The position numbers were made by a program, and so were the translations under genes. From positions 1 through 39,872 of the forward strand of contig JAPPAR010000021.1 in assembly GCA_026705445.1 (NCBI GenBank): 39,872 nt of DNA. Reading direction: 5' to 3'. A model generated the notes under the pieces. It saw only the letters and a program-made list of their open reading frames with translations. It was not told where the DNA came from and made no database searches. Below are positions 7,753-19,912 of the stretch, one piece after another; the first letter of the stretch is position 1; each line of letters begins with the position of its first letter. The stretch comes from Candidatus Dadabacteria bacterium. Lineage in GTDB: Bacteria > Desulfobacterota_D > UBA1144 > Nemesobacterales > Nemesobacteraceae.

Positions 7753-7818
7753 AGAGGGCGGTCTTTCCCACTTCGACGGCATATGCTTGTTTGAACTTGG
7801 GTTCCGGCAAACCGAAAG

Positions 7819-14422: not shown

Positions 14423-15511
14423 TCATACGTAACGCCTCGGAACCCTCGGCGAAATCCGTGATAAGAGTTCGTAAGGTATGGTTTGGGCCCAGGAAGAGAC
14501 ATCCTCAACGCTCACGAGCCCATCTCCGAAAAGCACCGCTTCGTCTCCAACACAGATACCTGGAATGTCCGTTACATCGACCATGATAAAATCCATGCAG
14601 ACGGACCCTATAAGCGGAGCGAGTTTCCCGCCGAGAGAAACTTCCGCCTTGTTTGAAAGGGCTCTGGGATAGCCATCCGCATACCCAATCGGAAGGGTTG
14701 CGACCAGTGTTTCTCTGCTGGTAACGAAAGTTCCTCCGTAACTGACCGGAGTGCCCGGGGGAACTTCCCTGAGCTGCACTACCCTTGTTTTGAGTTTCAT
14801 AACGGGCCTTAGGCCAACCTCTCCCATGTCGCCTGAACCGTAAAGCATTATCCCAGGTCTTACGATATCCATGTGAGAATCCGGAAATCTCTGAATGGAG
14901 GCGCTGTTTGCGGAATGGGCGTAGCGGTATTTAACTCCCAGTTCGTCAAGAAAAAAAAGGCCCTCGCGGAAAACCCCGAGCTGATAATCCGTATAGTCGC
15001 TTTGGTGAATCTCAGAGGAAGCAAGATGCGTGAAAACACCCTCAAGCATTACTCCGGGAAGTTTGGCAGCCGAAGCGAAAAAAGATTCTATGTCGCCTAC
15101 TCCCACTCCGAGCCTGGTCATCCCCGTATCGACTTTCAGGTGATAACCGACTGTTTTTCCACACTCAACAGCGGCTCGAGAAATAGCTTCGAGCACATTG
15201 ATGGAATAGCACGCCGGAGTAAGCGTGTTCTCCGCCACTACACCGGCTTCGCTGGGATCAATCCCTCCAAGAAGAAATATTTCGTTTTTTATTCCGGCTT
15301 CCCTAAGTTCCATCGCCTCCGGTACGGTGGCTACCCCTAACATATCCGCTCCATTACTAAGGGCAGCATCGCTTAACCTTACAGCACCGTGCCCGTAAGC
15401 GTTGGCTTTGACAATTGCCATAATACGGACATTCTCCCCCACAATTCTTCTTACTTCGCCAAGATTTGATTTAAAAGAATCGAGACTGATTTCAGCCCAA
15501 GTAGGTCTCAT
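14423..15511 (-). CDS. alr: Alanine racemase
   Basis: A PLP enzyme converting L-alanine to D-alanine for peptidoglycan. The 362-aa length is standard. The PLP lysine is Lys35 in IVKANAYGHGA, the phosphate-contact segment is YAHSANSAS, RPGIMLYG follows, and the second catalytic base is the Tyr of VSYGGTFV. The C-terminal beta domain ends LLSRISPRVPRRYV, typical of Alr. The ATG at 15511 has only a weak ribosome site. The start overlaps by 20 nt the end of the small disrupted ORF upstream, which suggests past coupling. Confidence 0.95.
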   Translation of the reverse strand: MRPTWAEISLDSFKSNLGEVRRIVGENVRIMAIVKANAYGHGAVRLSDAALSNGADMLGVATVPEAMELREAGIKNEIFLLGGIDPSEAGVVAENTLTPACYSINVLEAISRAAVECGKTVGYHLKVDTGMTRLGVGVGDIESFFASAAKLPGVMLEGVFTHLASSEIHQSDYTDYQLGVFREGLFFLDELGVKYRYAHSANSASIQRFPDSHMDIVRPGIMLYGSGDMGEVGLRPVMKLKTRVVQLREVPPGTPVSYGGTFVTSRETLVATLPIGYADGYPRALSNKAEVSLGGKLAPLIGSVCMDFIMVDVTDIPGICVGDEAVLFGDGLVSVEDVSSWAQTIPYELLSRISPRVPRRYV

Positions 15512-15802: not shown

Positions 15803-15810
15803 AAACTTTT
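15803..15810. repeat. Left target-site duplication of the transposon
   Basis: AAACTTTT, directly outside the left terminal repeat, is identical to 18619-18626 outside the right repeat. Eight base pairs is the duplication length known for the IS1595 family. Confidence 0.92.
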
Positions 15811-15839
15811 GGGAATTATAAAGATTACTTGACAAAATA
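15811..15839 (+). repeat. Left terminal inverted repeat
   Basis: The 29 bp begin GGGAATTATAAA and end TTACTTGACAAAATA. They match the right repeat except for two adjacent bases (GA here, CT there). The inner part holds the TTGACA -35 box of the transposase promoter. Confidence 0.93.
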
Positions 15840-15857
15840 AATCTCCTTATGTATATT
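15829..15857 (+). promoter_or_regulatory. Transposase promoter, -35 inside the terminal repeat
   Basis: TTGACA (15829-15834), a 17-nt spacer, then TATATT (15852-15857) form a near-consensus sigma-70 promoter. Only 6 nt separate the -10 box from the ATG at 15864, so transcription should start on or next to the A of that ATG: a leaderless transposase mRNA. Confidence 0.75.
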
Positions 15858-15863
15858 ATTACC

Positions 15864-16838
15864 ATGATGAAAAAGAAAACATTTAAAGCTCCCGGTAAGG
15901 CTTACAGGGAGGGAATAGATCTTCTTGAACTTATGAAAATGTTTCCTGACGAAGAAACGGCCACTCGCTGGTTCGAATCCATTATCTGGGGCGATTCCCG
16001 TTTTTGCCCCAAGTGCGGAAGCGTGGAAACAAGGAAAGTTCCTAACGCCAAACCCATGCCCTACTGGTGCAAGGATTGCCGGAGTTATTTCAGCGTCCGT
16101 ACCGGAACCGCTATTGCCCGTTCTAACGTCCCCCTTCAAAAGTGGGCGTTGGCTATCTACCTTTGCCTTACAAGCCTTAAAAGCGTGTCCAGCATGAAAC
16201 TTCACAGAGATATAGGGGTATCCCAACCCACGGCGTGGTTCATGCTTCACCGGATACGGGAAGCATGGCAAACCGAAGGAAACAACAATTTTCAAGGCCC
16301 TGTTGAAGCTGACGAAACCTTTATGGGCGGTAAGGATAGAAACAAGCATGACAATAAGAGAAGCCATGTGCAAGGCCCTTCCGGCAAAACCGTAGTAATT
16401 GGAATAAAGGACAGGAAATCCAATAGAGTTGTTGCCAAGCGAGTTCCCAACAGGGAAAAGGAAACAGTACAGGATTTTATACGAAACAACACTTCCCCTG
16501 ACGCTAAGGTCTATACCGACAACCATAAGAGTTACAGTGGGCTTCCCAATCATAAATCCGTAAACCATAGTGTCGGGGAGTTCGTCAAGGGTATGGCTCA
16601 TACCAACGGTATCGAATCTTTCTGGGCCGGACTGAAAAGGGCGCACAAAGGGACTTTCCACAAGATCAGCCCTAAGCACCTTGATCGGTATATTCAGGAA
16701 TTCGCGGGTAAGCATAATATGCGGGATTCAGGAACCCTCCTTCAAATGCGTTTCACCGTTGCCGGACTTATGGGACGCAACCTTCTCTACAGGGACCTTG
16801 TCCGGGACAACGGGCTTTCTTCCCTGGCAAGGGCGTAA
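15864..16838 (+). CDS. IS1595 family transposase
   Basis: A 324-aa DDE transposase. An N-terminal zinc ribbon (CPKCGS and CKDC: Cys48, 51, 69, 72) and helix-turn-helix-like region (VSSMKLHRDIGVSQPTAWFMLHR) are followed by the ISXO2-like catalytic domain: Asp150 in VEADETFMGG, Asp219 in VYTDNHKSY, then Asn248 and Glu251 in HTNGIESFWAGLKR. All key residues are intact, so it may be active. An in-frame ATG at 15849 would lie inside the promoter; I take 15864 from the promoter geometry. The 3' end overlaps, antisense, the 60-aa passenger ORF. Confidence 0.93.
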   Translation: MMKKKTFKAPGKAYREGIDLLELMKMFPDEETATRWFESIIWGDSRFCPKCGSVETRKVPNAKPMPYWCKDCRSYFSVRTGTAIARSNVPLQKWALAIYLCLTSLKSVSSMKLHRDIGVSQPTAWFMLHRIREAWQTEGNNNFQGPVEADETFMGGKDRNKHDNKRSHVQGPSGKTVVIGIKDRKSNRVVAKRVPNREKETVQDFIRNNTSPDAKVYTDNHKSYSGLPNHKSVNHSVGEFVKGMAHTNGIESFWAGLKRAHKGTFHKISPKHLDRYIQEFAGKHNMRDSGTLLQMRFTVAGLMGRNLLYRDLVRDNGLSSLARA

Positions 16839-16910
16839 CAAGGCTTTAGCCAGCGTTTCCGGGGTTGCTCCTTTAAGGTCTCGTTCTTTGTCTATCATGG
16901 CTTTTTTCAT
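16728..16910 (-). CDS. 60-aa unknown ORF at the end of the passenger set
   Basis: The ATG at 16910 lies inside the stop of the 82-aa gene (ATGA overlap), which suggests translational coupling. The N-terminal half (ERDLKGATPETLAKALLRP) looks like a genuine amphipathic, protein-like segment and lies outside the transposase gene. The second half runs antisense to the conserved transposase C-terminus and could be only a shadow frame. No function can be given. The DLKGATPE-LAKALL pattern reminds me of short orphan proteins in other bacteria, but I cannot confirm this. Confidence 0.45.
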   Translation of the reverse strand: MKKAMIDKERDLKGATPETLAKALLRPCQGRKPVVPDKVPVEKVASHKSGNGETHLKEGS

Positions 16911-17155
16911 TTTGTTTCCTCGTACAAATCGAGAGAAAGCAGAACCTTCCCGCCTGGTTGTGATTCCACTTCTATATGGCTTACTTTGTCTAACTGAAAG
17001 GGATGTATCACTCCTTCAAATTTTTTCTTATCATATTCGCAAGCGGATACCAGAAACCTGTTTTCCTTTATTTGTATCTCAAAATACAGTTTTTCCGCGG
17101 ATATCTCCGCTCGCGTTAAAAATTTGGTTTTTGAATGTTTTGCGAATTTACTCAC
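16907..17155 (-). CDS. 82-aa unknown passenger protein
   Basis: A GTG-started protein 10 nt after the methyltransferase stop. It is basic at the N-terminus (MSKFAKHSKTKF) and then shows alternating hydrophobic residues suggesting beta-strands (KLYFEIQIKENRFLVSACEY, HIEVESQPGGKVLLSLDLYE). There is one Cys, and no membrane segment or known motif. Position in the transposon operon suggests a role with the methyltransferase-HNH protein, such as a control or immunity factor, or with transposition; this is inference from neighbourhood only. Confidence 0.65.
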   Translation of the reverse strand: MSKFAKHSKTKFLTRAEISAEKLYFEIQIKENRFLVSACEYDKKKFEGVIHPFQLDKVSHIEVESQPGGKVLLSLDLYEETK

Positions 17156-17165
17156 CTTTTTAGAT

Positions 17166-18536
17166 TTATTTCCTCACTTGCGAAATCAAGTATTCTTGTG
17201 TTCTGTCGCCTTTTATCCTGTTACAGTATCCGCAAAGCAGTTGTAAATTCTCGTCTGTATCTGAACCACCTTTGCTTTTAGGTACTATGTGATCTACTTC
17301 AAAATCCTTTATTCTGTACCAGTGTCCGCAACCACTACACATTCCTTCCTGTTTACCGTACAGAATATTCTTAATATCTCTTGAACGTTTACCTCCGCGA
17401 TCGGTAGGAATGTCGGTTCGGTGGATTAACTTGAGAATGGTAAATCCCAGTTCGTTTTGCATTCTCGATTTTACAAGTTCAGCAGCTTTAGGGGATATAT
17501 CTATACCTACCCATTTACGATCTAATTTCTCAGCGGCAACACAAGTTGTGGCGCAACCACAGAAAGGATCAAGTATCATATCACCCTCATTACTTGACGC
17601 TTTAATTATCCGCTCTAGCAATTTTAATGGTTTTTGCGTTGGGTATCCGGTGCGTTCTTTTGATCGTGCCCCAAGAAGTAATTCTGTCTCAACCCATAAA
17701 TTGCCGGGTGACACACCAGCATAATATTTCATATACGATCTTCGCTCTAACCCTTCTTCTGTAACAACAATGTTACCTTTTTGATATTCTTCTTCCATTT
17801 TCTCGTATTTCATTCTCCATCCTGTTGAATATGGTGGATAATGGCCCCGAAACTCATAGCATAAGTTAGGGCGATCTCCCATAGACGGCGACCGCCAAGC
17901 TGTTGTTTTAGTGTTGTATCGGTTTCCATATTCGTCGATTTTAGGAAACATATTATTGATTTCCGATTCTGTTAAATTTTTGATTATGCGCGGATCAAAT
18001 TGGAAGTTTTTTCCTTTCGTATAAAACAACAAATGATCTACATTATTACCCCAACGTTTCGACGCGTGTTGACTCCCTTTGGCCCCTGATTCATTTCTTC
18101 TCCATACGATTTCATCTCTGAAAAATTTCCTTCCGAAAACTTCATCCATGAGCAATTTTAAGTAATGAGAAGCAGTGGGGTCACAATGAAGATAGATAGA
18201 ACCTGTAGGTTTCAAAATTCGCTTCATTTCCATAATCCTGATGGCTATGTAAATGAGATAGCTCATCATAGACTTTCCGTGTATCTCTCTTGTAGTTTCC
18301 AAGAGTTTATAAAGACCAGGATATTGACTTTCTATTTCTCCATGCCATGCCAAGTCTATATCTGATAATCCCCATGTATCTTTGAATTCCGCACCCGCGG
18401 CTTGACTACCTATAGGAGCGGCATAATCATGGTTGGAATTAAACGGTGGGTCCAGATAAATGAGATCTATACATTCATCGGCTATACCTCGCATAACTTC
18501 AAGGTTATCACGGATAAAAATGGTTCTGTTTTTCAT
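17166..18536 (-). CDS. Beta-class DNA methyltransferase fused to an HNH nuclease domain
   Basis: A 456-aa protein. The methyltransferase part has the catalytic motif IV DPPF early (residues 29-32, LIYLDPPFNSNHD), then a variable target-recognition region (about 120-290), motif X-like YPTQKPLKLLERI and the SAM-binding motif I DPFCG (323-327). This IV-then-I order defines the beta class of N6-adenine/N4-cytosine enzymes. The last 60 residues form an HNH domain: CSGC (400-403), VDHIVPKSKGG (Asp415, His416), CGYCN (435-439) and KGD. An upstream ATG at 18584 exists; I chose 18536 because the promoter in the right repeat starts RNA after 18584 and GGCGG precedes 18536. It may modify and cut DNA as a one-protein system. 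Confidence 0.9.
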   Translation of the reverse strand: MKNRTIFIRDNLEVMRGIADECIDLIYLDPPFNSNHDYAAPIGSQAAGAEFKDTWGLSDIDLAWHGEIESQYPGLYKLLETTREIHGKSMMSYLIYIAIRIMEMKRILKPTGSIYLHCDPTASHYLKLLMDEVFGRKFFRDEIVWRRNESGAKGSQHASKRWGNNVDHLLFYTKGKNFQFDPRIIKNLTESEINNMFPKIDEYGNRYNTKTTAWRSPSMGDRPNLCYEFRGHYPPYSTGWRMKYEKMEEEYQKGNIVVTEEGLERRSYMKYYAGVSPGNLWVETELLLGARSKERTGYPTQKPLKLLERIIKASSNEGDMILDPFCGCATTCVAAEKLDRKWVGIDISPKAAELVKSRMQNELGFTILKLIHRTDIPTDRGGKRSRDIKNILYGKQEGMCSGCGHWYRIKDFEVDHIVPKSKGGSDTDENLQLLCGYCNRIKGDRTQEYLISQVRK

Positions 18537-18570
18537 TTTTCCGCCTTGTACTAAATTGACAGACGGAATT

Positions 18571-18600
18571 ATTTTATCAAACATGGTTGTATTTTGTCAA
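18571..18600 (-). promoter_or_regulatory. Passenger-operon promoter, -35 inside the right terminal repeat
   Basis: On the minus strand TTGACA (18600-18595), an 18-nt spacer and TAAAAT (18576-18571) form a promoter whose -35 is part of the terminal repeat. The predicted start near 18564 leaves a leader of about 28 nt with GGCGG before the methyltransferase ATG at 18536. Confidence 0.65.
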
Positions 18601-18618
18601 GTAAAGTTTATAATTCCC
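18590..18618 (-). repeat. Right terminal inverted repeat
   Basis: Read on the minus strand it begins GGGAATTATAAA and ends TTACTTGACAAAATA. It is 27/29 identical to the left repeat at 15811-15839. Confidence 0.93.
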
Positions 18619-18626
18619 AAACTTTT
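18619..18626. repeat. Right target-site duplication of the transposon
   Basis: AAACTTTT, identical to 15803-15810 and directly adjoining the right end of the element. Confidence 0.92.
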
Positions 18627-18745: not shown

Positions 18746-19912
18746 ATGAAGCTGAACAGATACGAACTTCGCTCCGTTCTAGTAATAGGAACAATAATTG
18801 CACTTAGGCTTCTAGGAATATTCCTGATAATTCCCGTTTTCAGCATATACGCCGTAAACTACGAGGGAGCAACCCTCTCCTCCGCCGGAGTCGCATTCGG
18901 AATATACGCCCTTACCCAGAGCCTGCTGCAGATACCTTTCGGCATGGCAAGCGACAGATTCGGAAGAAAGCCGGTAATAGTAGTAGGACTTCTGATCTTT
19001 TGCGTTGGAAGCGTTCTCTGCGCTTTTGCAGACACCATCTGGGAGCTAATAATAACCAGAGCGATTCAGGGAAGCGGTGCTATAGGCGCAGTTGCCATAG
19101 CTATTCTCGGAGACTGCACAAGAAACGAGGTAAGGGCCCAGTCTTTTATGCTGACTGGAATAATAATCGGAACGGCGTTTATAACTTCGCTCATAGTCGG
19201 TCCAGTACTCGCAGGGAAATTCGGTTTTGAAAGTCTTTTCTTCATCCTCGCAGCCCTAGGATTAGTTGCGGTGCTCGTTACTCTTTTCATGTTCCCGGAA
19301 CTTCCAAAGAAAAAAACAAGGGACAGAAAAGAAATTCTTCTCAAACTCAGGGAACCGGAAGTGAGAAGAATTCTTTCCTCAACCTTCATAACATCCATCT
19401 GTCTTAACCTTATCTTGTTCATCTATCCTCTGGACTGGAAAAATATCGGTACCGGCCCCCAAGATCTGTGGTTCGTCTACCTAGTAATACTCGCCCCCAG
19501 TGCGCTCCTGGCTAACGCCTACATCAGGATTTCAGAAACGAGAAAGAAATTGAAACAGGCAACTAGGTTCGGGCTTTTCTTTTTAGTAGCCGCCTTTTTA
19601 ATCTATCTGCTCCGAGCATCTGACAGTATCACACTCTACCTCGCGGGGGCGGTCTTTTTTCTTGGATACTCCATATTTCAGTCCATACTACCTGCGTTTG
19701 TTACGCAAAGAGTCTCCTCGGAGAACAGGGGTGTGCTCTCCGGTTTTTTCAACCTGGCAAACTTCATGGGAGCCTGCGTGGGGGGAATGTCCGCCGGTAT
19801 ACTCTATGAGACACACCAGTCTTTACCCCTGATATTCGGACTTTTGTTCTTGATACTGTGGAGCTTTGTCGGGCTTCCCGGACCACCGCTGGAACAAGCA
19901 GAAAAAGAATGA
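18746..19912 (+). CDS. Major facilitator superfamily transporter
   Basis: A 388-aa inner-membrane transporter with about 12 hydrophobic segments. The MFS motif A between segments 2 and 3 is clear (GMASDRFGRKPVIV), and a conserved ITRAIQGSGAIGAVAIA segment follows (motif B-like). The C-terminal half contains FVTQRVSSENRGVLSGFFNLANF, as in YajR/drug-efflux-type MFS proteins. The substrate is unknown. There is only a weak ribosome site (GGGA) before the ATG. The transposon lies 119 nt upstream, so its insertion may have altered expression. The stop overlaps the next gene by 4 nt. Confidence 0.85.
   Translation: MKLNRYELRSVLVIGTIIALRLLGIFLIIPVFSIYAVNYEGATLSSAGVAFGIYALTQSLLQIPFGMASDRFGRKPVIVVGLLIFCVGSVLCAFADTIWELIITRAIQGSGAIGAVAIAILGDCTRNEVRAQSFMLTGIIIGTAFITSLIVGPVLAGKFGFESLFFILAALGLVAVLVTLFMFPELPKKKTRDRKEILLKLREPEVRRILSSTFITSICLNLILFIYPLDWKNIGTGPQDLWFVYLVILAPSALLANAYIRISETRKKLKQATRFGLFFLVAAFLIYLLRASDSITLYLAGAVFFLGYSIFQSILPAFVTQRVSSENRGVLSGFFNLANFMGACVGGMSAGILYETHQSLPLIFGLLFLILWSFVGLPGPPLEQAEKE

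Follow-up and report, generated by a model that had tools for sequence, protein, structure and literature searches.

A small transposon in a 39,872-nucleotide stretch of a Candidatus Dadabacteria genome (assembly GCA_026705445.1, contig JAPPAR010000021.1, positions 1 to 39,872; the whole stretch is referred to below as the window) appears to carry its own restriction-modification (R-M) enzyme. The element is a complete and intact cargo transposon of the IS1595 family, of the type termed tIS, in which passenger genes reside inside the ends, and its main passenger is probably a single-chain R-M enzyme in which a DNA methyltransferase is fused to an HNH nuclease domain.

The element occupies window positions 15811-18618 (2808 bp) and is bounded by inverted ends that are identical at 27 of 29 positions and are flanked directly by perfect 8-bp copies of AAACTTTT; IS1595 elements are known to generate duplications of this length. 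The transposase combines a DDE domain with a zinc ribbon and matches Pfam PF12762 DDE_Tnp_IS1595 (E=2.9e-38), PF12760 (1.9e-06) and NCBIfam NF033547 IS1595 (E=9e-55), all above cut-off, in a frame of 329 amino acids (aa) devoid of internal stops. Among random anchors in the fetched loci, none of 497 showed inverted ends (at least 20 of 25 positions matching) together with identical 8-bp flanks. An earlier note on the window had described a complete IS1595-type transposon with cargo, an intact DDE transposase, 29-bp ends matching at 27 positions and a perfect 8-bp duplication, all of which is borne out by the ends, the duplication, the transposase and the open reading frames (ORFs) within. It also placed three opposing ORFs inside the ends, and three there are (472, 82 and 60 aa), although the methyltransferase “genes” of which it spoke proved to be one, as methyltransferase and HNH domain share a single ORF.

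That ORF matches both PF01555 N6_N4_Mtase (5.4e-45) and HNH (6.5e-14) in Pfam and contains the methyltransferase motifs DPPF and DPFCG. In an alignment of eight sequences, the window protein and seven relatives, the methyltransferase motif D339-T346 (DPFCG) is invariant, as are C416, D431, H432, N446, C451 and C454. Structurally solved proteins related to it in sequence are methyltransferases (Mod, CcrM and RsrI-type), and its C-terminus is related to HNH domains of Cas9-, IscB-, McrA-type and other entries. With respect to type II systems, a DNA methyltransferase domain with intact motifs is thus present, and the fused HNH domain with its conserved residues is the candidate cognate nuclease; a general type II label for the fusion would be provisional. 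The middle third of the protein (residues 161-305) behaves as expected of a target-recognition domain, since in six of the seven relatives it is far more variable (19-26% identity) than the catalytic part (64-84% for residues 306-378; Table 1). The earlier proposal of an R-M-like passenger accordingly gains support from the domains and from this variable middle, and also from relatives, described below, in which clear R-M pairs lie between like ends.

Table 1. Identity of seven relatives to the window protein by region (aligned residues only, gaps set aside)
Relative	Residues 306-378	Residues 161-305	Residues 399-472
L005	82%	26%	88%
L085	84%	20%	84%
L087	77%	24%	72%
L084	70%	23%	50%
L093	64%	19%	32%
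L094	64%	23%	37%
L091	70%	49%	46%

One alternative is that the protein is an orphan or regulatory enzyme that methylates the element ends, promoters or host genes, the HNH domain being vestigial or serving another step. The fusion does match orphan as well as type II and type III methyltransferase models, and several of its relatives are frame-shifted; yet the metal-binding and catalytic-type positions of the HNH domain are those found invariant in the eight aligned sequences, and in other relatives a T5orf172 nuclease (L073) or an Mrr_cat nuclease (L090) takes the same C-terminal position on the same methyltransferase scaffold. An Mrr-type nuclease also occupies this scaffold in gene 48 of Streptomyces phage Hippo and on two plasmids. 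That several nuclease types share one position argues that the nuclease domain would be functional, and we consider purely regulatory methylation unlikely.

Several observations weigh against an active R-M enzyme. In L091 the middle, at 49% identity to the window protein, hardly differs from the N half (48%) and the HNH region (46%), and in L093 and L094 identity is also low in the HNH region, at just 32% and 37%. Of the seven relatives compared by region, L005, L085 and L087 derive from broken genes, although decay by itself would not explain why both sides of the middle were spared in them. Broken relatives occur on or near elements (L071, L085, L087 and L186, together with L005, which is without the N-terminal part), so that selection for fusion activity is not uniform. 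Genome G018 encodes a full-length fusion (486 aa, L091) in a chromosomal gene neighbourhood, with no ends detected within 4 kb, and this gene type is therefore not confined to these transposons. Finally, an AlphaFold model built from the eight sequences is poor (mean pLDDT 57.2) and adds nothing.

A side observation concerns the broken genes. Runs of 8-10 G (or C) residues mark the points, two in the gene, where methyltransferase-HNH relatives lose their frame (L085 2255-2264, L087 1754-1762, L088 4473-4481 and L071 7130-7137). Runs of at least eight number just 15 in the 541,057 bases surveyed, and others of them lie in or beside IS1595 transposases (L090, L128, L129). The window gene contains no such tract. 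The pattern looks like phase variation by slippage, or like sequencing error in the tracts.

Among named classes of R-M system, type IIG comes to mind, as methyltransferase and nuclease are joined in one polypeptide there as in the window protein. Type IIG enzymes consist of an N6_Mtase/Eco57I-type (gamma-class) methyltransferase with an N-terminal PD-(D/E)XK nuclease, whereas the window protein is of the beta class (PF01555) with a C-terminal HNH domain; it is therefore likened to type IIG and not filed there, and it is not of the N6_Mtase/Eco57I kind carried by one of its relatives (L072, below). Type III was considered as well and does not fit: the protein has Mod-like matches, but a Mod protein is paired with a Res helicase-nuclease, and the other internal ORFs are of 82 and 60 aa and without family match. 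The beta-class methyltransferase-Mrr fusions of phage Hippo (gene 48), Rhizobium sp. Pop5 and Microbacterium amylolyticum have a methyltransferase homologous to that of the window (37.5-41.8% identity up to residue 401) and differ in their Mrr-type C-terminal domain; in the 4-7 kb regions viewed around them no IS1595 transposase is annotated. Hippo gene 48 (L137 1465-3108) lies two genes from a serine integrase and is perhaps a prophage-borne exclusion system. Viral contigs gave seven loci with weaker fusion relatives (38-47% identity).

The features of the element are collected in Table 2. The transposase start is likelier to be Met6 (15864) or Met7 (15867) than the beginning of the longest frame, because of the position of the promoter-like pair, and the true start of the 472-aa frame is probably Met17 (18536), because the right-end -10 (18576-18571) falls inside its first 16 codons. 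The G+C content of the methyltransferase gene (39%) is lower than that of the transposase gene and of the flanks (48% each), which is in keeping with a foreign origin. The insertion lies between two divergent genes, 14423-15511 on the minus strand and 18746-19912 on the plus strand, and interrupts neither; their translations look, by eye, alanine-racemase-like and transporter-like, respectively.

Table 2. Features of the element in the window
Feature	Position	Strand	Remark
Left target-site duplication AAACTTTT	15803..15810		8/8 identical to right copy
Left (transposase-side) terminal inverted repeat, 29 bp, inward TTGACA inside	15811..15839	+	27/29 against right end
Promoter-like pair TTGACA-17-TATATT into transposase; -35 inside inverted repeat	15829..15857	+	11/12 of consensus
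IS1595-family DDE transposase with zinc ribbon, 329 aa (longest frame)	15849..16838	+	Profile matches
Conserved 60-aa backbone ORF, motif DLKGATPE-[TK]-LA-x-ALLR	16728..16910	-	In 9 elements
82-aa ORF, GTG start	16907..17155	-	No family
Beta-class N6/N4 DNA methyltransferase (residues 39-372) fused to C-terminal HNH (416-461), 472 aa	17166..18584	-	Pfam
Promoter-like pair TTGACA-18-TAAAAT into passenger genes; -35 inside right inverted repeat	18571..18600	-	11/12 of consensus
Right (passenger-side) terminal inverted repeat, 29 bp	18590..18618	-	27/29 against left end
Right target-site duplication AAACTTTT	18619..18626		8/8 identical to left copy

Promoter-like sites are not in excess across the whole region (7, as against 6.1 in shuffles). 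At the transposase end a pair with at most two mismatches over 12 positions is found in 15 of 18 elements, compared with 22 of 2000 random 100-mers. At the far end, with the same tolerance, such a pair is present in 7 of 10 elements with opposing cargo versus 1 of 12 with co-directional cargo, the direction having been labelled automatically for 18 elements and by hand from the ORFs for four. For 18 elements this far-end rule gives one-sided p=0.004 with hand labels and p=0.008 with automatic ones; it is exploratory because it was noticed first and then tested and repeated on these same elements. As a strict rule, that a far-end promoter occurs only if the cargo reads inward, it fails: L066, L068 and L186 are exceptions, and conversely L097, where the direction label is a near tie (130 versus 128 aa). 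With that caution, the ends plausibly drive both the transposase and the passenger genes.

How the parts might work together can be outlined as follows. The transposase would move the unit, bounded by two repeats that start with GGG, into AT-rich sites, and an inward promoter at each end would serve, on the left, the transposase and, on the right, a passenger operon of three genes. The beta-class methyltransferase domain would mark host DNA, with the variable middle domain selecting the sequence to be marked, and the fused HNH domain would cut incoming DNA that is unmarked. The spread of the element might then rest on hopping together with some benefit, or at least no harm, to the host. The 60-aa protein would serve some transposon function and might restrain the transposase gene with which it overlaps.

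This 60-aa ORF is, judging by its codons, a protein-coding gene that belongs to the backbone of the transposon. Codons 1-24 are located beyond the transposase gene; from there on the ORF runs antisense to the end of that gene. It is present in nine elements of the clade with different cargo (window, L066, L068, L069, L071, L073, L074, L083 and L087), and matches occur in five of 60 related genomes (G000, G005, G010, G011 and G012), always beside such a transposase. Codons with a single difference, summed over all pairs of the nine sequences, were synonymous in 318 cases and non-synonymous in 44 in its own frame, whereas the other five frames gave 56/300, 8/327, 57/305, 241/94 and 33/323; the test covers 22 codons (66 bases, of which 12 fall within the transposase gene), and although the pairs are not independent, the contrast is strong. 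The 82-aa ORF, the stop of which overlaps the 60-aa start, is confined among the loci compared to the window and the copy in G011. Neither small ORF gives a match to Pfam or NCBIfam families at an E threshold of 1, nor does the 82-aa ORF match any in PADLOC or PHROG.

Mobility is best seen in a second copy of the element. The window genome (G000; 1.78 Mb in 48 contigs) holds one full copy, along with a 481-base stretch on contig C2 that resembles part of the methyltransferase gene at 74% identity; the remnant there, L005 (6067-7779), is a decayed methyltransferase-HNH gene without its N-terminal part, with one end-like sequence at 7779. In G011, a genome of another species of the same genus, the end of contig C29 carries a copy identical at 2769 of 2770 compared bases (the sole difference is at window position 18108), with the right end present and a different flank. 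The DNA beside this copy is 95-96% identical to contig C22 of G000, where G000 has no element; because the match stops 9 bases short of the element, C22 does not offer a clean empty site. As for the site in the window itself, the transporter gene is present in the 12 congeneric genomes searched, and the DNA beside it (up to 1.5 kb; 214 bases in G005) shows no similarity to the element; in 10 of them the other flank is visible too. The nearest approach to an empty site is in G008, where flanks of 96.7 and 97.5% identity enclose one AAACTTTT; an exact single-copy empty site was not found at these 12 loci. The copy at another site in G011 and the element-free window site in 12 genomes indicate that the element is mobile and would have moved after the species split, much as the earlier note had surmised from the duplications when it suggested recent movement and proposed a search for other copies and for empty sites. 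The copy in G011 answers the first search in favour of mobility, and the second is answered in part, by sites that have no element and, in G008, a single AAACTTTT. To be set on the other side are the left end of the G011 copy, which is cut by the contig so that the left repeat is unseen, the 18 further bases at the G008 site that are absent from the window, and a remaining doubt that bins from one metagenome were mixed.

The same note had inferred that the passenger would favour its own retention (addiction) or guard the element, and nothing in the data pointed to either. Addiction would mean that cells from which the element is lost are killed by the passenger. Where one polypeptide has both functions, methylation and cleavage are lost together, unlike with separate R and M genes, and as both presumed activities of the window fusion would go together in this way, post-segregational killing is less expected of it. 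Decayed copies, moreover, persist (L087 in G010 and the remnant L005 on contig C2 of G000). In favour of the idea, Takahashi et al. 2011 (PMC3031569) report that cells lacking a properly integrated R-M plasmid were selected against by restriction, integration being mostly at chromosomal insertion sequence (IS) copies; even so, we regard addiction as highly improbable for the window element. That case resembles ours in the help that IS elements give to the movement of R-M genes, and differs in that the plasmid joined the chromosome mostly via separate IS copies, whereas here transposase and passenger form one small unit within a single pair of ends.

The R-M enzyme proposed for the window is one of several such passengers in a wider family of elements. 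A search with the transposase protein gave matches in 24 of 60 related genomes, a count that includes G000. Scanning of genome contigs gave nine loci labelled Dadabacteria, Gammaproteobacteria, Alphaproteobacteria, Rhodobacteraceae, Aestuariivita and Bryobacterales, and 19 further regions were drawn from six of those genomes. Several of the host records, going by their isolate codes, probably come from reef sponges; there are also sponge-microbiome papers that contain both transposases and R-M. Longer transposase matches were preferred; the first batch of loci was chosen with methyltransferase matches in view and the second by transposase alone. The 43 and 19 transposase-bearing loci reduce to 60 distinct ones after two repeats (L182 = L073, L183 = L074), and 22 of them, from Dadabacteria, Proteobacteria and Bryobacterales, are closed by matching ends and identical 8-bp flanks; the remainder are fragments, are cut by contig ends or did not close. 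All 22 are among the transposase matches. In 19 of them the ends match in register at no fewer than 22 of their first 25 bases, and L073, L083 and L100 require a one-base offset at one end. Besides the window element, 21 further elements have an 8/8 target duplication, and 144 of the 176 duplicated bases are A or T.

R-M genes of several unrelated kinds are present in 11 of the 22 closed elements. Methyltransferase-HNH fusions are carried by four (window, L071, L178 and L186, broken in L071 and L186), a methyltransferase-T5orf172 protein by L073 and a methyltransferase-Mrr protein by L090. A 4.9-kb element in a Dadabacteria genome (L072 4917-9806), with AATTTTTG duplications, encodes a 1094-aa type IIG protein (PADLOC 1e-150). 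A methyltransferase is paired with a ThaI-type nuclease in L086, a D12 methyltransferase with a PADLOC type II nuclease in L100, and a type II methyltransferase (L122) and a C5 methyltransferase (L123) with partners of 220 and 242 aa that match none of the families searched. The cargo of the other 11 closed elements includes small ORFs of unknown kind and an aspartyl-protease-like gene (L101).

It could be argued that a methyltransferase was merely trapped once between IS1595 ends and that the association is meaningless for the element; half of the closed elements do carry other or unknown genes, and defence genes are not rare near these elements, as the control below attests. Yet the methyltransferase-HNH gene is found in four closed elements with different transposases, unrelated kinds of R-M genes recur, and on the transposase tree cargo state (R-M or not, in 18 closed elements) must have changed at least six times, so that chance capture seems a rather poor bet. 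In that tree of 26 transposases the nearest to that of the window element is the one of L083 in G012 (84% identity), an element with different cargo: DNA similarity between the two runs over element bases 2-1102, ends about 74 bases past the transposase gene and resumes in the last two dozen bases.

In a PADLOC comparison (E up to 1e-10; passengers from 70 aa, controls from 100 aa), R-M genes made up 10 of 41 passenger ORFs, eight of these being matched individually and two (L071, L090) inferred from domains and family member counts; the L073 methyltransferase ORF, which contains N letters, was left out of the passenger set. For the control, 90 ORFs were picked at random out of the 166 flanking ORFs of 100 aa or more at the same 18 loci. 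The 25 listed of the 44 matching control families include three for R-M and one for a methyl-directed nuclease, each with a single member; as members are unnamed and 25 of 44 families are listed, an exact control count is not available. Other defence families also occurred among the flanking ORFs, a point against the main reading, and for this reason enrichment of R-M cargo is likely while its magnitude is not exact.

Two other kinds of protein drew attention in the survey. Small proteins with a signal-peptide-like start and the pattern A-[IL]-QSFGW-x-CNE occur as or beside passengers (L118 6304-6747, L120 6471-6812 and L096 4441-4767); the one from L120, the sole one scanned, has no NCBIfam family. 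ORFs that look, by eye, like GIY-YIG proteins are passengers or neighbours of other IS1595 transposases (L174 4613-4966, L098 6142-6465 and L188 5889-6575), and that of L098, again the sole one scanned, has no Pfam family.

Passenger-carrying members, called tIS, exist in a number of IS families, according to PMC7986276. The window element resembles the IS1595 tIS in its transposase domain, zinc ribbon, inverted repeats, 8-bp duplications and passengers inside the ends, and is set apart by a passenger that is a one-chain methyltransferase-nuclease and by the conserved 60-aa backbone gene. IS-linked movement of R-M genes was likewise known before (PMC3031569). IS1595 passengers and mobile R-M genes were thus known separately, and their combination appears to be new; no work on IS1595 elements carrying R-M genes was found in the literature as judged by titles and the starts of abstracts, in a search that left subscription literature mostly uncovered and so is no proof of absence, and IS1595 goes without mention in the part of a report on thaumarchaeal mobile elements (PMC6563490) that was covered.

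The movement of R-M genes without plasmids or prophages is seldom visible. Here the transposase, the ends, the target duplication, element-free sites, a near-identical second copy and relatives with exchanged cargo are all in view, which suggests that small IS1595 transposons can act as vehicles for bacterial defence genes. More tentatively, though we think it less likely than not, the elements may represent a lineage across several phyla with a dedicated passenger slot: promoters in the ends, a 60-aa control protein placed antisense, and a bay that has recurrently taken up self-contained R-M systems, including one scaffold that exchanges its recognition and nuclease domains. If this is true, few autonomous carriers of defence genes would be smaller than such elements. 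Two ideas become testable from here, namely that tiny transposons spread defence genes between phyla, and that a methyltransferase-HNH fusion may be a complete R-M system in one gene.

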